Source: Desulfovibrionales bacterium
Lineage (GTDB): Bacteria; Desulfobacterota; Desulfovibrionia; Desulfovibrionales; Desulfonatronaceae
Length of the DNA stretch: 58,902 nucleotides
Reading direction: 5' to 3'
Assembly (NCBI GenBank): GCA_007693505.1
Contig: REDL01000081.1
Span: 1-58,902 of the forward strand
Shown: piece by piece, positions 2,313 through 9,559 of the stretch
Layout: each line of letters starts with the position of its first letter
Position numbering within the stretch: position 1 is the stretch's first letter
Position numbers and translations under genes: made by a program
The notes under the pieces: generated by a model
Told to the model about the DNA's origin: nothing
Database searches by the model: none
Seen by the model: the letters and a program-made list of their open reading frames with translations, nothing else

Positions 2313-4307
2313 ATGTCCCAATCCGCCCCAGCCGACGACCCGCCCTCTCCCCGGCCCCCTGGCCGCGACCCCGATTGCAAGGCCCGGGAACCGGAGTGCT
2401 TCGACCTCATCGTGGTGGGCGCGGGCCATGCCGGATGCGAGGCGGCCATGGCCGCGGCCCGGCTGGGCCTGACCACCCTGCTTTTGACCATCAACATTGA
2501 CCGCATCGGCCATCTGTCCTGCAACCCGGCCATCGGCGGGCTGGCCAAGGGGCACATGGTCAAGGAGATCGACGCCCTGGGAGGGTGCATGGGCGTCTGG
2601 GCCGACCAGGCCGGCATTCAGTTCCGGATACTGAACACCCGCAAGGGGCCGGCCGTGCGGGCCACCCGGGTCCAGATCGACCGGGACGCCTACATGCGGG
2701 TGGTCCAGCAAGACGTGTTCGGCCAGGACCGGCTCTGGATCCGCCAGGAGATGGTCGACGGCCTGCTGGACCGGGACGGCCGGGTCACCGGTGTGCGTAC
2801 CCGCCTGGGTGAGGAGTTGCATGCCCGGACCGTACTTCTGACCACCGGGACCTTCCTGCGCGGGTTGATCCATGTCGGCCTGAACCATTTCCGGGGTGGA
2901 CGGTTGGGCGATCCCCCGGCTGCCTGCCTCTCAACGGACCTGGAGCGCATCGGCCTGGAATTGGGCCGCCTGAAGACCGGCACCGTGCCCCGCCTGCGCC
3001 GGGACAGCGTGGCCACCCAGGCCATGGCCCCGCAGCCCGGGGACGCGCCGCCGCGTCCCTTCAGCTTCCATTCCCCGGGGGTGAACCTGCCCCAGGTCCC
3101 CTGTCATCTGACCTACACCAACGCGACAACCCACGCCGTAATCCGCTCCGGCCTGGACCGCTCCCCGCTGTACACCGGGGTAATCCAGGGCACCGGAGCG
3201 CGCTACTGCCCGTCCATCGAGGACAAGATCGCCCGCTTCCCGGACAAGGATCGCCACCAGGTCTTTGTGGAACCCGAGGGCGTGGACCACCCGGAGGTCT
3301 ACCCCAACGGCCTGCCCACCAGCCTGCCCCTGGAAATCCAGCGGGCGATGCTGGGGACCATTCCCGGACTGGAACAGGCCCAGATCGTCCGGCCCGGCTA
3401 CGCCATCGAATATGATTTCGTCTTTCCGGAACAGCTGTTGCCCACCCTGGAAACCAAGGTGCGGCGCGGCCTGTACCTGGCCGGGCAGATCAACGGCACC
3501 TCGGGCTACGAGGAGGCCGCGGCCCAGGGACTCTGGGCCGCGCTGAATATTGTCGCAGCCCTGCACGGTACGGATCCTTTTCTCCCTGGCCGAAACCAGG
3601 CCTACATGGCCGTACTGGTGGACGATCTGGTGACCAAGGGCACCCGGGAACCCTACCGGATGTTCACCTCCCGGGCCGAGCACCGCCTGCTGCTGCGCGA
3701 GGGCAACGCGGACCAACGCCTGACACCGCTGGGCCGTTCCCTGGGTCTGGTCCGGGATGACCACTGGGGGATCTTCACCCGTAAACAGGACGCCCTGCGG
3801 GATATTCTGGAGGGACTGGCCGTGATCATGGTTCGACCTGATGCCGCCATGCGGGATTTTTGCGCGACCAAGGGCACGGCACTGCCGGGCAAGGCCCTCA
3901 GCCTGGAAGAACTGCTGCGCCGTCCGGAACTGCACCTGACCGACCTGGCCGGTTTCTGGCCGGAGCTGGCCACCATGAGTGACAATTTCTCCGCGGAACT
4001 GACCGAGGAAGTGGAGAACCGGGTCAAATACGCCGGCTATCTCTGTCGTCAGGAGGAATTGGCCAACCGGGATCAGTCCCTGGAACAGATCACCCTTCCG
4101 GAATCCCTGGATTTTGAGCAGGTGGCTGGACTTTCCTCGGAAGTTCGGGAAAAATTGCATCGCGTCAGACCACTGAACCTGGGCCAGGCCGGACGAATAT
4201 CCGGCATCACTCCCGCGGCCCTGGGCTGCCTGCGCATTCACCTGCGTAAACTGGAGAAACCACCTTCCCCGCCCCTGCCCAATCCACCGCCCCCGCCGGC
4301 GTCATGA
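2313..4307 (+). CDS. mnmG: tRNA uridine-5-carboxymethylaminomethyl modification enzyme MnmG (GidA)
   Basis: A 664-residue FAD protein which, with MnmE, installs the carboxymethylaminomethyl group at wobble U34 of certain tRNAs. The N-terminal dinucleotide-binding motif is VVGAGHAGCEAA near residue 34, followed by the family signatures SCNPAIGGLAKGH, NTRKGPAVRATR, TGTFLRGLIHVG and GQINGTSGYEEAAAQG; the C-terminal helical domain ends with GITPAALGCLRIHLRK. The open frame extends upstream into the M20 gene, but the ATG at 2313 is chosen because only about 30 residues of proline-rich leader then precede the FAD motif. Its stop overlaps the mlaE start as ATGA, so it is probably translationally coupled to the lipid transport block. 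Confidence 0.95.
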   Translation: MSQSAPADDPPSPRPPGRDPDCKAREPECFDLIVVGAGHAGCEAAMAAARLGLTTLLLTINIDRIGHLSCNPAIGGLAKGHMVKEIDALGGCMGVWADQAGIQFRILNTRKGPAVRATRVQIDRDAYMRVVQQDVFGQDRLWIRQEMVDGLLDRDGRVTGVRTRLGEELHARTVLLTTGTFLRGLIHVGLNHFRGGRLGDPPAACLSTDLERIGLELGRLKTGTVPRLRRDSVATQAMAPQPGDAPPRPFSFHSPGVNLPQVPCHLTYTNATTHAVIRSGLDRSPLYTGVIQGTGARYCPSIEDKIARFPDKDRHQVFVEPEGVDHPEVYPNGLPTSLPLEIQRAMLGTIPGLEQAQIVRPGYAIEYDFVFPEQLLPTLETKVRRGLYLAGQINGTSGYEEAAAQGLWAALNIVAALHGTDPFLPGRNQAYMAVLVDDLVTKGTREPYRMFTSRAEHRLLLREGNADQRLTPLGRSLGLVRDDHWGIFTRKQDALRDILEGLAVIMVRPDAAMRDFCATKGTALPGKALSLEELLRRPELHLTDLAGFWPELATMSDNFSAELTEEVENRVKYAGYLCRQEELANRDQSLEQITLPESLDFEQVAGLSSEVREKLHRVRPLNLGQAGRISGITPAALGCLRIHLRKLEKPPSPPLPNPPPPPAS

Positions 4308-5083
4308 ACCTTCCCCTGGTCTCCACCCTGGGCCGCTGGGCCATTGACCGGTTCCAGAGCTACAACCAAATGGTCCACATTCTGGTCCAAGCCCTAAGCG
4401 CTCTGGTCCGTCTCGCCCCGTTCAATCCGGCGATCTTCTTCGTCCTTATCCGGCAAATCTACTTCACCGCGGTCCAGCCCGTGACCATCATCACCGTATC
4501 GGCTTTGATCCTGGGCTCGGTCACGGTGCACATCCTGCTGCGCATCCTCATCGGCCTGGGCGCCTACGAGCAGATCGGCGATTTCCTGATCACCGCCATG
4601 CTCCACCATATTGCACCCATCACCTGCACATTGATCATTGTTCTGCGTTCGGGCACCGCGGTGCTCACGGAGATGGCCCTGATGAAAATCAACCGGGAGA
4701 TGGCCACCTTGGGCGTTCTGGGCGTACCTGTGGAGGAATACCTGTTTTTGCCCCGCCTGCTGGCCTTCCTCATTGCCGGACCCTGCCTGAGCTTTTGTTT
4801 TTGCGTCATCGGGTTGCTGGGAGGCTTTTTTACCCTGAGTTTTCTGCATGACATCACCTTTGCCAGCTACCTGGACCGACTGCTCTTCGCCGTGGATGTC
4901 GCGGACGTGTTCATCCTGATCGCCAAGTCCATGATCATGGCCGGGCTGGTCTGCCTGGTGGCCTTGCAACGGGGGATGAGCGTGCAGCGTTCCTTCACCG
5001 AAGTGCCCATTCGATTGATCCAGGGCATGATCCAGACCGTCACTTTGATCATTGCGGTGGAAGTCATCTTCAACCTGTTCTAA
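4304..5083 (+). CDS. mlaE: MlaE family lipid ABC transporter permease
   Basis: A 259-residue inner-membrane permease of the MlaE/YrbE family, which forms the membrane core of MCE-type phospholipid transporters that maintain outer-membrane asymmetry. It has about five hydrophobic segments and the family core ILRSGTAVLTEMALMKINRE, with FLPRLLAFLIAGP following. The usual form is about 260 residues. It begins inside the mnmG stop codon and is followed by a degenerate ATPase-like gene and mlaD, the same gene order as canonical mla operons except that the ATPase follows the permease. Confidence 0.9.
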   Translation: MNLPLVSTLGRWAIDRFQSYNQMVHILVQALSALVRLAPFNPAIFFVLIRQIYFTAVQPVTIITVSALILGSVTVHILLRILIGLGAYEQIGDFLITAMLHHIAPITCTLIIVLRSGTAVLTEMALMKINREMATLGVLGVPVEEYLFLPRLLAFLIAGPCLSFCFCVIGLLGGFFTLSFLHDITFASYLDRLLFAVDVADVFILIAKSMIMAGLVCLVALQRGMSVQRSFTEVPIRLIQGMIQTVTLIIAVEVIFNLF

Positions 5084-5129: not shown

Positions 5130-5651
5130 ATGTCATCACCTCCGCTGTTCATCTCCTCCCTGACGGCCCAACGCCGCCACCTGCTGCTGGTGGCGGAACA
5201 GGAAGCGACCATCTCCCGGCTGACGTCCATGGTCGTCCAGTCCGACTTTCACATCGGGGTCATCAGCGACGAGTTTCCCTTTTTGGCCAATCTTTCCGCA
5301 CTGGAGAACATCGCCCTGGGCTGCATGTACCACAAGGCCTTGCATCTTCCGGCCTGCCGCCACAAACTCCAGGACGTCGTCACGGCCCTGAACCTGGATA
5401 ACGCCCTGGAACAGCGCACCCAGTTTTTGAGTCGGCCGCTGCAGTTGAAGGTGCATCTGCTGCGCTGCATCGCCAACGAGTCCTCGTTCATCCTGCTGCC
5501 CTTGCCGTCCCGCTCGGACTGCGACATTCTGCACCGCGCCGTGGAAAGCCTGAAACGCAACATCTTTCTCTGGGTGGCCTGCTTGTCAAATGATCAGGAT
5601 GTCTATACCTCCTTGGAATACCCCATCATTGATCTCAACACGCTGCAATGA
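5130..5651 (+). CDS. Degenerate MlaF-like ATPase remnant lacking Walker A
   Basis: A 173-residue protein occupying the place of the MlaF ATPase between mlaE and mlaD. Parts of an ABC nucleotide-binding domain remain: FPFLANLSALENIAL matches the segment after the Q-loop, and LSRPLQLKVHLLRCIANES followed by ILLPLP aligns with the signature LSGGMQ helix and the Walker B LLLDEP. No P-loop (GxxGxGKS) is present, the LSGGQ glycines are lost and the Walker B acids are replaced, so it should not hydrolyse ATP. The reading frame is intact and overlaps mlaD (ATGA at 5648), arguing for retained function rather than decay. The ATG at 5130 is preferred over an internal start in mlaE. Confidence 0.7.
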   Translation: MSSPPLFISSLTAQRRHLLLVAEQEATISRLTSMVVQSDFHIGVISDEFPFLANLSALENIALGCMYHKALHLPACRHKLQDVVTALNLDNALEQRTQFLSRPLQLKVHLLRCIANESSFILLPLPSRSDCDILHRAVESLKRNIFLWVACLSNDQDVYTSLEYPIIDLNTLQ

Positions 5652-6673
5652 GCCTCAATCAACGCACCCTGGAACTCAAAGTCGGCCTCTTCGTGCTGAC
5701 CGTCCTGGCCGGCGTGGCCTTCTTGATCGTCTACATCGGCATTCAGAAGGACCTCTTCGCCGAGCGCATCTCCTACACCGTCGTCAGCCAGACCGGTGAG
5801 CGGATTGAACCGGGCATGCCCGTTCGACTCTCCGGCTTCAACATCGGCCAGGTCACGGACGTGAGCCTGGACCGGGTGGACCAGGTCCGAATGACCATTC
5901 GCATTCTCAAGCGCTACCAGCAATGGTTCACTGAGGATGCCAGGATCATCCTGGAGCAGGAGGGCTTCATCGGCAGCAGCTTCCTGAAGCTGATGCCCGG
6001 TACGGAGGCTGCACCGGTCATGGAAGAAGGCGCGGTGATCCGGTTGGACAAGATCGGCGGGGTCAACGAACTGATCCAGGAGATGCAGCCGGTGATCGAG
6101 GCCTTGCGGGCCATCGTGATCAATATCTGGGATTTGACCGACTACCTGGTGGATGACCAGGGCCCGGTCCGGCGTATCCTGGTCAACGCCGAAACCATGA
6201 CCGAACGCCTGCTGGCGGAACACGGCCTGGTGTACTACCTGACCGAAGACCCCCGGCCCACGGCGCACATCGATGAAATTCTGGCCAAGTCCGATACGGC
6301 CATGCACACGGTGAACCGGCTCCTGGAAAGCACCGCGTTGCGGATTGAGGACCTGGCTCCGGTTCAGGAGGAGATCGCCGGAGTGATCCGGGAGGTGAAT
6401 ACCCTGATCGTGGAATTCCAGGGGGTCCGGGACGATGTCTCACCCTTACTGAACAATCTGACCCAAATCAGCAAGGACGCCCAACCCCTGTTGCGCAACG
6501 TCACCCTGATCAGCGAAGACATTCAGGCCGCAACCCACGACCTGATCAGCCTGCGCCGGCAGGGTGAATACAGCCTGCGGCTGGGTACGGACCTGCTACT
6601 CCGGCTCCAGGAAACCTGGCCTCTTTCCCGCCGGGACCGGCCTGGACCCGAGCCCTCCTTCCCCTGGCCATAG
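5648..6673 (+). CDS. mlaD: MlaD/MCE domain protein
   Basis: A 341-residue substrate-binding component of an MCE lipid transporter: a single N-terminal membrane anchor (VGLFVLTVLAGVAFLIVYIG, about residues 12-31), an MCE beta-barrel domain at about 38-120 (GERIEPGMPVRLSGFNIG, then EGFIGSSFLKLMPG), and a long helical C-terminal region. In the family this protein forms a periplasmic hexameric ring that carries phospholipid. It is translationally coupled to the upstream ATPase-like gene and followed by a lipoprotein gene that may supply the MlaB/MlaC or outer-membrane role. Confidence 0.88.
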   Translation: MSLNQRTLELKVGLFVLTVLAGVAFLIVYIGIQKDLFAERISYTVVSQTGERIEPGMPVRLSGFNIGQVTDVSLDRVDQVRMTIRILKRYQQWFTEDARIILEQEGFIGSSFLKLMPGTEAAPVMEEGAVIRLDKIGGVNELIQEMQPVIEALRAIVINIWDLTDYLVDDQGPVRRILVNAETMTERLLAEHGLVYYLTEDPRPTAHIDEILAKSDTAMHTVNRLLESTALRIEDLAPVQEEIAGVIREVNTLIVEFQGVRDDVSPLLNNLTQISKDAQPLLRNVTLISEDIQAATHDLISLRRQGEYSLRLGTDLLLRLQETWPLSRRDRPGPEPSFPWP

Positions 6674-6774
6674 TCGTTTGCATTTGGGTGAACCTGATTC
6701 AACCTGAGGACAGCAGACAGATTCCAAACATCGAGCAATTATCCAGCCCCTCGAACAATGCCCATCCAGTAGCC

Positions 6775-7575
6775 ATGCGCCTGCCCCTTTTCCCGAACAA
6801 GCCTCAATGCCCGCGGCACGTCCTCACCCCGGATTCCGGCATCCTTTCCCGTGGCCGCAGCCTCATGGTGATAGGGCTGATCCTTGCCCTGCTGTACAGC
6901 ATCCCGGCCTGCGGCCCCTCCAGGCCACGGTCCGTTTACCCCCCCCCGGACATCCTGGGCATGGCCGAGACCCAGCGTCACGAGTTCATCCATCTCTTTC
7001 TTCAGGGGCGGTGGTGCGAGGCCCAGGGCATGTTCGAACGCAGCGTGGAAAGCTACAAACTCCAGGACGATTTCTGCGGGGCGGCCCATAACCACCTGAT
7101 TGCCTGGAAACTCCACCAGTACGTCCACCTGGAGGCAAACCACCATCTGGCAGCGGCTCGGGAATTGGCCGGTACCGGGCTTTCCTGTCCGGCCCTGCAC
7201 CTGCCGGACCCCGCCGCTGACCATTCCTTTGCGGACGAGGACCGCCTGGGAGCTTCGGACCTGGACTACCGAAGATTGATCGACCAGGGCGCGTTCATGA
7301 CGCTGTCGCAGCGGCTACGGTCGGAGCGGGATCCTCTGTTTGCCTCTGTCTATGGACGCAAGGCCGCCCAGGCCGCCCTGGACCAGGGAGAGCTGGAATC
7401 GGCGCGGGATCTGTTGCACCAAACCCGTGACCTGAACGCCCAACAGGGATGGATCGTCTTTCTGATCGCGGACTGGAATATGCTCCTTGAAGTGACCACG
7501 GAACCGGAACGCCGCCATGAGATACAGCGCCGCATCGTCCTGCTCCAGGAGAGAATTCAGCCATGTTCCATCTGA
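6775..7575 (+). CDS. Putative lipoprotein of the Mla operon
   Basis: A 266-residue protein of unknown function with a hydrophobic segment ending LYSIPACG, a lipobox that would place a lipidated Cys at about residue 46. The mature part is helical with paired-helix character (REL/ESARDLLHQ, RRHEIQRRIVLLQ), suggesting TPR-like repeats. Several in-frame starts exist (6688, 6775, 6865); 6775 is a compromise keeping basic residues ahead of the hydrophobic core. It lies 100 nt after mlaD and overlaps the PilZ gene, so it is likely in the same transcript. No homology to MlaA, MlaB or MlaC could be seen. Confidence 0.6.
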   Translation: MRLPLFPNKPQCPRHVLTPDSGILSRGRSLMVIGLILALLYSIPACGPSRPRSVYPPPDILGMAETQRHEFIHLFLQGRWCEAQGMFERSVESYKLQDDFCGAAHNHLIAWKLHQYVHLEANHHLAAARELAGTGLSCPALHLPDPAADHSFADEDRLGASDLDYRRLIDQGAFMTLSQRLRSERDPLFASVYGRKAAQAALDQGELESARDLLHQTRDLNAQQGWIVFLIADWNMLLEVTTEPERRHEIQRRIVLLQERIQPCSI

Positions 7576-8603
7576 TCCTCCCTGCTGTGCACTTGTCGCC
7601 CCTTGGCCAGACCAATCTCTATTTCCAGAGCTGGGAGCTCAGCTGGGAGCAGGCCCAGCGCCCTCTGACCATCACCATCACGTTGATCGCCGTCCTGATC
7701 GTGACCGCGATCAGCCTGCACATTTACCGGAAGCGAACCTCCCAGGAAGGCAACTGGCTCGCGGTCAGCGACCCCGAAAAGATTCGTCTCGTCCTGGACC
7801 AGGCCCTGCGGGAACGGGCCACCTTGGACACCATGTTTCAGGGAGAATGGTCCCAGCGCGCCCATTTTTCCTGTGCATTGCTGGCCGTGGAGCCCGACCG
7901 GGGAATCACCCTGGAGACACCAGGGTACACCCACCCACAGCCGACATGGATCAGCCGTATCGTGACCTGCCACTTCCGCATTGCCTCAACCCGGAAGGAC
8001 GTCAAGTGGCTGTTTTTTCATTTTTCGGCGCCCATCATCGACATCCAGCACCATGAAGCTCGCGACGCCGTTGTCGTCCAAATCCCGAAGCAGCTCCAAC
8101 GCGGCCAACGGCGGGCCTACCTGCGCCTGGAACCGTTCACCCAGGATATCCCGGAACTGCGAATCTGGCCGGAGACCTTCTCCAATCTGGAGAGCGATGC
8201 CACCGGGCCGCCCATGACCACATTCCTGAACACCCGGGCGGTGAATCCGGTCCACATCCTGAACATCTCCGCCGGCGGATTGCTTCTGGAAATCCGCGTC
8301 CCCCTGCACCAGCTGCCCGATGAAGTCCTGGAAAAAGGCAAGCGCTTCTATCTGCATTTTCTGTTGCGCGATCCCGAGGACGGTGGAGTCAAGGAGTTCC
8401 ATCTCCGAGCGCAGATTCGCAACCTGTTCACCGACCCCCATAACGGAAAACGCTTGGCCGGCTTCTCCTTCACGGCCTATCGCAAGGCTCCGGAGGGCGT
8501 ACCGGACAACTGGGCCACCCTGGACGGCAAGGGTGTCGAGGCCATCGACGACTGGGTCTTCAAGCGACACCTCCAGGTCTATCGCCAGAAGGGCTTGACC
8601 TGA
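7563..8603 (+). CDS. Membrane-anchored PilZ domain protein (c-di-GMP receptor)
   Basis: A 346-residue protein with one membrane segment (about residues 36-54), a middle domain similar to the YcgR-type N-terminal barrel, and a PilZ domain. The c-di-GMP-binding motifs are present: an arginine motif RRAYLR (about 183-188) and NISAGGLLLE (about 237-246) in place of D/NxSxxG. Proteins of this type translate c-di-GMP into changes of motility or surface behaviour. It overlaps the end of the lipoprotein gene by 13 nt. A diguanylate cyclase gene lies 4 kb downstream. Confidence 0.8.
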   Translation: MFHLILPAVHLSPLGQTNLYFQSWELSWEQAQRPLTITITLIAVLIVTAISLHIYRKRTSQEGNWLAVSDPEKIRLVLDQALRERATLDTMFQGEWSQRAHFSCALLAVEPDRGITLETPGYTHPQPTWISRIVTCHFRIASTRKDVKWLFFHFSAPIIDIQHHEARDAVVVQIPKQLQRGQRRAYLRLEPFTQDIPELRIWPETFSNLESDATGPPMTTFLNTRAVNPVHILNISAGGLLLEIRVPLHQLPDEVLEKGKRFYLHFLLRDPEDGGVKEFHLRAQIRNLFTDPHNGKRLAGFSFTAYRKAPEGVPDNWATLDGKGVEAIDDWVFKRHLQVYRQKGLT

Positions 8604-8710
8604 CCCAGAGACATTTCAGTGAAAGTCTGCATATCGATCTGTGAGCACACGGTCGCCCCCGCGGCCGTGGTTGACAACCACGCAACACGCGAACCATCGC
8701 GGGAGGAAGC

Positions 8711-9559
8711 TTGGAAGAGGGCATAGAAGGCAAATTCTGGAACATGTTCAAGCGCATTTTTCGCAAGGATGACGCATCCAGCATTGAAGCCATCATACTG
8801 GCGGCCAAGGATGAAGGAGAGATCCGCAAGGAAGAGGCTTCCATCGTCCTCAAGGTGCTGCGCCTGGGACGCAAGCAGGTCCATGAGATCATGATCCCGC
8901 GCACGGATATCATCTGCGCCGAGATCGAAGATCGGATCGAGGACGTGGCCGAGTTGATTATCGCTCACGGCCACACCCGGATTCCGATCTACAAGGACAA
9001 CAAGGACAACATCGTGGGCATTGTCCACGCCAAGGATCTGCTGCAGTTCGTGCTGCACCCCACGGCCTCCCCCAAGAACAGGCTGGAGGAGATCCTGCGC
9101 GAGCCCTTGTTTATTCCGGAAACCAAGAACGTCATGGAGATGCTGCTGGAGTTCCAGTCGCGCAAGAACCACCTGGCCATTGCCCTGGACGAGTACGGCG
9201 GCACGTCGGGCATGCTGACGTTTGAAGATGTGCTGGAAGAAATCGTCGGCGACATCGAGGATGAATACGATGCCCCCCGCCCGGAAGACATCCAGGTCCA
9301 GGATGACGGCGGCTACCTGATCTCCGGCAGGACCGAACTGGCCGAGTTGCGCGAGAACCTGGTCGTGAACCTGGAAAGCGATCAGGTGGACACCATCGGC
9401 GGCTACCTTTCCCAGTTGGCCGGTCGGGTGCCGCGCAAGGGCGATGCCTTCGACATCCAGGGCTACCGCTTTCGGATCAGGGACGCGGACCAGAAAAAGG
9501 TTCGCTGGGTCGACGTTCACCCTCTGGAGTCCACTGACGAGGCCGAGGACAAGACATGA
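8711..9559 (+). CDS. corC: CorC/YbeX-type CBS domain protein
   Basis: A 282-residue soluble protein with a CBS pair (RTDIICAEIED to HAKDLLQF, then REPLFIPETKNVMEML to DEYGGTSGMLTFEDVLEEIVG) and a C-terminal CorC/HlyC transporter-associated domain with GDAFDIQGYRFRI. It lacks the DUF21 membrane domain and so resembles short E. coli YbeX, whose gene likewise precedes lnt. The start is a TTG at 8711 preceded closely by GGGAGGA; an ATG 33 nt later (MFKRIFRK) has no ribosome binding site. Its stop overlaps lnt (ATGA at 9556). Roles in Mg/Co export or ribosome-related functions are reported for relatives. Confidence 0.85.
   Translation: MEEGIEGKFWNMFKRIFRKDDASSIEAIILAAKDEGEIRKEEASIVLKVLRLGRKQVHEIMIPRTDIICAEIEDRIEDVAELIIAHGHTRIPIYKDNKDNIVGIVHAKDLLQFVLHPTASPKNRLEEILREPLFIPETKNVMEMLLEFQSRKNHLAIALDEYGGTSGMLTFEDVLEEIVGDIEDEYDAPRPEDIQVQDDGGYLISGRTELAELRENLVVNLESDQVDTIGGYLSQLAGRVPRKGDAFDIQGYRFRIRDADQKKVRWVDVHPLESTDEAEDKT

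Follow-up and report, generated by a model that had tools for sequence, protein, structure and literature searches.

A conserved NBD-like protein without ATP motifs in the MlaF position of a dedicated MlaE class in Desulfovibrionales: a possible non-ATPase cap

A stretch of DNA of 58,902 nucleotides from a Desulfovibrionales bacterium (the window, meaning the whole of that stretch) carries, between mlaE and mlaD, a gene whose product has lost the ATP motifs of an ABC ATPase. The gene is conserved and is linked one-to-one to a subclass of MlaE; the NBD fold of its product and the MlaE fold of the neighbouring permease are predicted. It is rather probable that this pseudo-NBD caps the coupling helices of MlaE in an MCE lipid conduit that lacks ATPase power of its own. 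Docking on MlaE, a structural role and ATP-free transport are inferred, and no complex was modelled or measured. A preliminary description of the locus had proposed a catalytically dead ATPase-like protein in the MlaF position, and this is upheld by profile comparison, by the predicted fold and by the missing ATP motifs. The host is placed with the genus Desulfonatronum (NCBI taxonomy: Desulfovibrionales, Thermodesulfobacteriota). The features of the window that are relevant here are the following.

2313..4307 (start approximate), + strand: mnmG, upstream of mlaE (GIDA, E 6e-157).
4304..5083, + strand: mlaE, of the permease class paired with the pseudo-NBD (PF02405, E 1.4e-41).
4697..4717, + strand: predicted MlaE coupling helix, residues 132-138 (model helix H132-138 and alignment of MlaE rows).
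5130..5651, + strand: pseudo-NBD gene in the MlaF position (ATG start at 5130, 173 aa, stop ends at 5651).
5181..5240, + strand: what is left of the strand and helix on either side of the P-loop, residues 18-37 (secondary structure of the predicted model).
5244..5513, + strand: conserved block from Q-loop to Walker B, residues 39-128 (hhalign against intact MlaF, probability 97.5).
5648..6673, + strand: mlaD, encoding an elongated MCE protein of 341 aa (PF02470, E 2.1e-13, residues 42-118).
6688..7575 (start uncertain), + strand: probable lipoprotein gene, downstream of mlaD (lipobox-like IPAC, by eye).

The pseudo-NBD gene had been described as open and overlapping mlaD, and both observations hold: mlaD starts with an ATG at 5648 within a 4 nt overlap (ATGA), and the frame is free of internal stops in all 22 carrier genomes of the order. 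The mlaE start and the mnmG end also share an ATGA overlap. By eye, mnmG lies upstream in related loci as well, and a gene similar to that at 6688..7575, the product of which has a weak TPR match (E 0.35), comes after mlaD in those loci. The MCE domain of the window mlaD product is near the N-terminus (PF02470, 50.7 bits, cut-off 25.1). When the neighbours were scanned by profile, the stretch from mnmG to the CorC-like gene yielded no second NBD-like gene, and no matches to STAS (MlaB) or MlaC were detected.

Further downstream, window positions 6688-9559 hold the order lipoprotein, PilZ-like gene and CBS/CorC, which recurs in distant members of the order; an lnt-like gene is next after CBS/CorC in relatives (by eye). 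This recurring arrangement hints at an envelope gene group. In one genome (G337, locus L092), an extra ORF of approximately 480 aa separates mlaE from the pseudo-NBD gene; it was not noticed in the other loci read from this order of bacteria.

The assignment of the window protein to the ABC NBD fold relies on profiles and on a predicted structure. Pfam ABC_tran matches the single window protein only at E 0.068, and this score was dropped as a measure of homology after a family profile had been built. Aligned with 17 intact MlaF proteins by hhalign, the 22-member profile gives E 7.7e-12; the 90 aligned columns begin at the Q-loop and end at Walker B, in keeping with the earlier remark that the segment after the Q-loop is kept. 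The NCBIfam FtsE model is matched by 22/22 members at E 1 or better (best member, 7.9e-9; window protein, 7.7e-6), and MacB tops a PDB profile search with the family (3.4e-11). The AlphaFold2 model of the pseudo-NBD (pLDDT 92.9, pTM 0.88) superimposes on E. coli MlaF (6xbd_I) with a Z score of 13.6 over 166 aligned residues at 3.5 A, with model residues 4-173 paired to MlaF residues 25-222. In a fold search, residues 3-173 align with NBDs, many of which tie with MlaF (within Z 1), and MlaF is not ranked first. Judged from the profiles and the prediction, the protein belongs to this fold.

Descent from MlaF in particular is not proven. By sequence, the nearest NBDs are of the FtsE, MacB and GlcV types, not MlaF. 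In a tree of NBDs, long branches prevented the dead proteins from being placed; they sit on a branch of 4.49. Descent from MlaF therefore rests on gene position and on the MlaE tree described below, and an origin from another NBD is possible.

The motifs needed to bind and split ATP were compared among the 22 members of the window's own subfamily, 12 members of a sister subfamily in another class, and 17 intact MlaF proteins, all 17 of which have every residue considered. The P-loop (GxxxxGK[ST]) is found in 0/22 and 0/12 of the two subfamilies, and also in 0/7 of a set of full-length dead NBDs that is introduced below. The Q-loop Gln (0/22 and 0/12) and the second signature Gly (0/22 and 0/12) are equally absent, while the first signature Gly occurs in 1/22 and 0/12 and the catalytic Glu in 1/22 and 0/12. 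The Walker B Asp persists in 4/22 of the own subfamily and in 12/12 of the sister subfamily, in which the position of the catalytic Glu is taken by Arg (10) or Gln (2). The H-loop His, present in 17/17 intact MlaF, is absent from 7/7 full-length dead NBDs (read from alignments). Two members of the own subfamily contain the letters LSGG or ISGG, away from the signature position. In the window protein, P-loop, Q-loop Gln, signature Gly, Walker B Asp and catalytic Glu are all absent, so that the loss of Walker A, LSGGQ and the Walker B acids noted previously was correctly read. The statement that there is no Walker A needs one refinement: the P-loop itself is absent, and the strand and helix that flank it survive. 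In the model, strand E18-22 and helix H25-37 are joined by two residues at the former P-loop.

Ahead of the Q-loop position there are approximately 39-54 residues in the own subfamily and 35-41 in the sister subfamily, against 81-98 in intact MlaF. With so short a segment, the antiparallel beta-subdomain is inferred to be gone and the ATP site to have collapsed. Each ATP site of an NBD dimer requires one Walker A and one signature; as both are lost, pairing with an active NBD would restore no ATP site. The motif content rules out ATPase activity of any standard kind for the pseudo-NBD. The helical side of an ABC-transporter NBD faces the permease, and it is this side that is best kept, the lost parts being those for ATP binding and splitting. 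Within the conserved block, the catalytic residues are lost and Asn60 and Arg112 are kept; an Asn and an Arg aligning with MlaF N103 and R155 are found in 34/34 members of the two subfamilies.

The preliminary description suggested looking for the same form in related genomes, and it was found there. A profile search of 348 genomes of the order detects the pseudo-NBD in 22, all scoring at least 75 bits, and the best of the remaining matches reaches 52 bits; 15 of the 22 carriers had supplied sequences for the profile. When the window MlaE was used as query on the same 348 genomes, its subclass was recovered at 146 bits or more (next, 80 bits) in exactly the same 22 genomes. The other 326 have neither gene, among them G001 (a 1.6 Mb assembly), one of eight genomes of the same genus, and the module is thus patchy and dispensable. 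A class-wide search for more carriers added none, the class being the same set as the order.

Within the genus, the pseudo-NBD gene has a median dN/dS of 0.27 (21 pairs); the corresponding value is 0.17 in mlaE (21 pairs) and 0.12 in mlaD (15 pairs, with one genome left out because its locus was unusable), and several dS values exceed 1. The pseudo-NBD gene evolves faster than mlaE and mlaD, but it is under purifying selection and does not have the marks of a pseudogene. Decay of the gene in relatives, which the preliminary description had named, together with a normal MlaF beside another mlaE copy, as grounds for its own rejection, is not the general pattern, given this selection and the 22/22 match with the MlaE subclass.

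A phylum-wide sample of 395 genomes yielded the sister subfamily. Twelve further candidates were chosen for their score and the length of their open frame (G664 and G500 lie in long frames), and all 12 were accepted by gene context; other matches of the phylum list were left out. Profile score overlaps with that of ordinary NBDs at this distance, the weakest distant members scoring 51.5 (G569) and 47.1 bits (G413). The order mlaE, pseudo-NBD, mlaD is seen in 12/12 sister loci, the sister and own profiles align at E 4.9e-23, and some residues are invariant across the two families.

The sister profile matches 87/155 genomes of its class. Of the 68 that do not match, 66 were examined. Two keep the MlaE subclass, G860 at a contig edge and G861 (L206) with an internally deleted pseudo-NBD, and in a third, G755, an MlaE apparently of this class is broken by stops (contig C188); G861 and G755 may be losses or assembly faults. 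Nine have a more distant MlaE (146-177 bits), 51 have only an MlaE of 139 bits or less, and in three no MlaE was shown.

Unlike the window gene, which has an ordinary ATG start, the sister genes seem, from their sequences, to start at AUU or AUC. At the end of mlaE, all 12 sister loci (L178-L189) have GAGGTG, five nucleotides and then an in-frame ATT, and in 4/12 the nearest 60 nt around that point are free of in-frame ATG, GTG and TTG codons. An in-frame GAGGT search of 70 further loci (L229-L298) gave ATT in 57, ATC in 10 and TAT in one, the last probably a false first motif match; the motif is missing in the remaining two, one of which is cut by a contig end. ATG, GTG and TTG are absent from the first six codons in all of 68 loci, and from the first 25 codons in 19 of these. 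A later, usual start codon is possible in some of the sister loci. Read in the mlaE frame that overlaps here, the Leu codon at this point is TTA in 54/56 cases, which are related loci and not independent events; the TTA share of Leu codons in the upstream stretch of mlaE is 15%. An AUU start codon is used by infC. The sister start looks like one of this type; many families keep it, and the mlaE frame that overlaps it seems constrained at this point. A fusion of MlaE and pseudo-NBD made by programmed frameshifting seems less likely than AUU initiation because the GAGGTG resembles a Shine-Dalgarno sequence at a fixed spacing. The odd start codon may be the reason why the sister subfamily has been overlooked.

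In the nine genomes of the sister's class that have the more distant MlaE, a near-full-length dead NBD adjoins mlaE (L207-L215). The beta-subdomain region is kept in these proteins, and mlaD is visible in 8/9 loci, with one of the nine cut by a contig end. Seven were aligned; they are 221-235 aa long and have no P-loop, and their alignment with intact MlaF spans 219 columns (E 2.1e-15). At the former P-loop, a new motif (DDaxLFLRALA) is conserved among them. In a maximum-likelihood tree, which carries long-branch warnings, 63 MlaE sequences divide by the type of partner: intact (21 rows, support 100/98), full-length dead (9 rows, 99/99) and shrunken (33 rows, 94/92). The full-length dead NBDs are apparently an intermediate grade, and the simplest history is a single loss of catalysis followed by shrinkage. 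It is suggested, tentatively, that an old branch of the ABC superfamily has abandoned ATP, and that at least two classes of Thermodesulfobacteriota possess ATP-independent MlaE lipid conduits with a pseudo-NBD cap that shrank stepwise from a dead ATPase of full length to approximately 155-180 aa and that, in one branch, starts at AUU or AUC.

The partner permease, by its sequence and its predicted structure, retains the coupling helix and the fold of MlaE, with some changes specific to its class. The model of the window MlaE (pLDDT 87.9) matches E. coli MlaE (6xbd_G) with a Z score of 28.4 over 252 aligned residues at 1.9 A. The coupling helix of MlaE is the usual docking site of the ATPase, according to a structural report (PMC7790496). 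This helix was aligned in 34 MlaE rows partnered by a pseudo-NBD and 20 partnered by an intact MlaF; the latter are made up of 17 orthologues that share a type, a duplicate and two rows of other types, so three MlaE types at most are represented. A Glu present in 20/20 intact-partnered rows occurs in 0/34 pseudo-partnered rows, where it is replaced by Arg (14), Lys (8), Gly (8), Asn (3) or His (1). A Pro is similarly present in 20/20 against 2/34. These differences read as a docking surface that has been retuned for a different partner.

An unlinked normal MlaF, which the preliminary description advised searching for, does exist: the host genome has three further mlaE loci, each with an intact MlaF. 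The mlaE genes of two of these (L032 on contig C110 and L033 on contig C44) have an N-terminal extension of approximately 130-160 aa, possibly a fused STAS (MlaB-like) domain, judging by eye alone.

In the model proposed here, the pseudo-NBD would occupy the MlaF seat of a dedicated MlaE, docked on the coupling helices. Its motifs for ATP binding and hydrolysis are lost, together with part of the ATP-binding core, and the part facing the permease is kept. Once docked, it could hold the MlaE dimer fixed or passively gated within an MlaE-MlaD bridge, and phospholipids would then pass between the inner membrane and the periplasmic bridge without ATP hydrolysis by a subunit of the system itself, driven by a gradient or by something else. 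The module would be a specialised paralogue operating beside normal MlaFED systems in one cell. The preliminary description had left the choice among another ATPase, transport without ATP, and a scaffold; a scaffold that works without ATP fits best, and an ATPase acting in trans is not excluded by sequence.

Such an ATPase would be an intact MlaF encoded at another locus, which might power the window-type MlaE alone or together with the pseudo-NBD. Candidates are available: the host has three, and at least one intact MlaF (280 bits or more) is present in 78 of the 80 carriers examined out of 109 known, the exceptions at that threshold being G728 and G799. There is also a precedent in MceG, which serves both Mce1 and Mce4 and co-purifies with YrbE1B (PMC10517005). 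However, MlaE copies outnumber those of intact MlaF by one in 73/80 of the same carriers (by two in six and by none in one), so that each intact MlaF seems matched to its own permease. The coupling-helix Glu of the intact-partnered rows is gone from this MlaE class, and a mixed dimer would be without one half of each ATP site. Powering in trans is an idea by analogy, and it is unlikely without being negligible.

It may otherwise be that the pseudo-NBD is a regulatory lock that blocks the NBD seat and keeps the permease off, or that it relays a signal. A competitor of the NBD is known in this permease family, as Mce1N displaces MceG from YrbE1B (PMC10517005), and a PilZ-like gene is third downstream of the pseudo-NBD gene, although its match is under the cut-off (21.7 versus 22.5 bits). 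An on-off inhibitor would need an active NBD to compete with, whereas the pseudo-NBD is the sole NBD-like gene found in the cluster and tracks its own MlaE subclass one-to-one; this analogy is quite unlikely to apply. A decaying remnant, kept by polarity or by translational coupling to mlaD, would suit the faster evolution of the gene, its patchy occurrence, the internally deleted copy in G861 and the broken mlaE, apparently of this class, in G755, but it is hardly credible given a dN/dS of approximately 0.27, residues invariant across families, presence in two classes of the phylum and a compact, confidently predicted fold.

No earlier description of a dead MlaF was found among the titles and abstract beginnings of open-licence PMC literature. 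Both the force and the direction of lipid movement between membranes are debated for MCE systems. Here a permease that looks structurally intact has a disarmed motor and stands beside paralogues that keep theirs, which would allow a direct comparison in the same cell. The module suggests that a motor of its own is not needed in this branch of the transporter family and that selection can keep an ABC permease in the absence of a competent cognate ATPase. It also offers an apparent stepwise record of an NBD turning into a pseudoenzyme. Surveys that identify MlaF by ATPase profile and synteny, a method described in PMC10665443, would probably score such operons as lacking MlaF.

Several known systems are comparable in part. 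The E. coli MlaFEDB system likewise has mlaE, an NBD gene and mlaD together, with the same MlaE and NBD folds, but the window NBD is without ATP motifs and beta-subdomain, and no STAS (MlaB) or MlaC match accompanies it among the neighbours scanned. In heterodimeric ABC transporters, degenerate NBDs that have likewise lost catalytic residues continue to bind ATP and have a working NBD as partner, whereas the pseudo-NBD retains no ATP motif at all. MlaD has 341 aa in the window and 183 in E. coli (E. coli length from PMC10665443). A similar arrangement is the MlaEFD bridge of Veillonella parvula, with three genes, an elongated MlaD and an overlap of mlaF with mlaD (PMC10665443); in the window cluster, the NBD is dead.

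Mycobacterial Mce systems differ in having no pseudo-NBD in the seat. Their mceG gene sits outside the mce operons. The likeness that the MceG case provides is an MlaE-type permease operon without a working ATPase of its own. Mce1N of the Mce1 system is likewise no ATPase and takes the NBD site of a permease of MlaE type; it has two predicted TM helices and works beside an active ATPase (PMC10517005), whereas the pseudo-NBD is folded as an NBD and has no other NBD-like gene in its cluster. PqiABC and LetAB are MCE systems without a known ATPase, and PMC10897342 leaves their drive open among passive movement, an unknown ATPase and PMF. PqiA and LetA have another fold, are not MlaE and show no NBD relic. 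By analogy, transport by the window system could be passive, as is left open for PqiA (PMC10897342).
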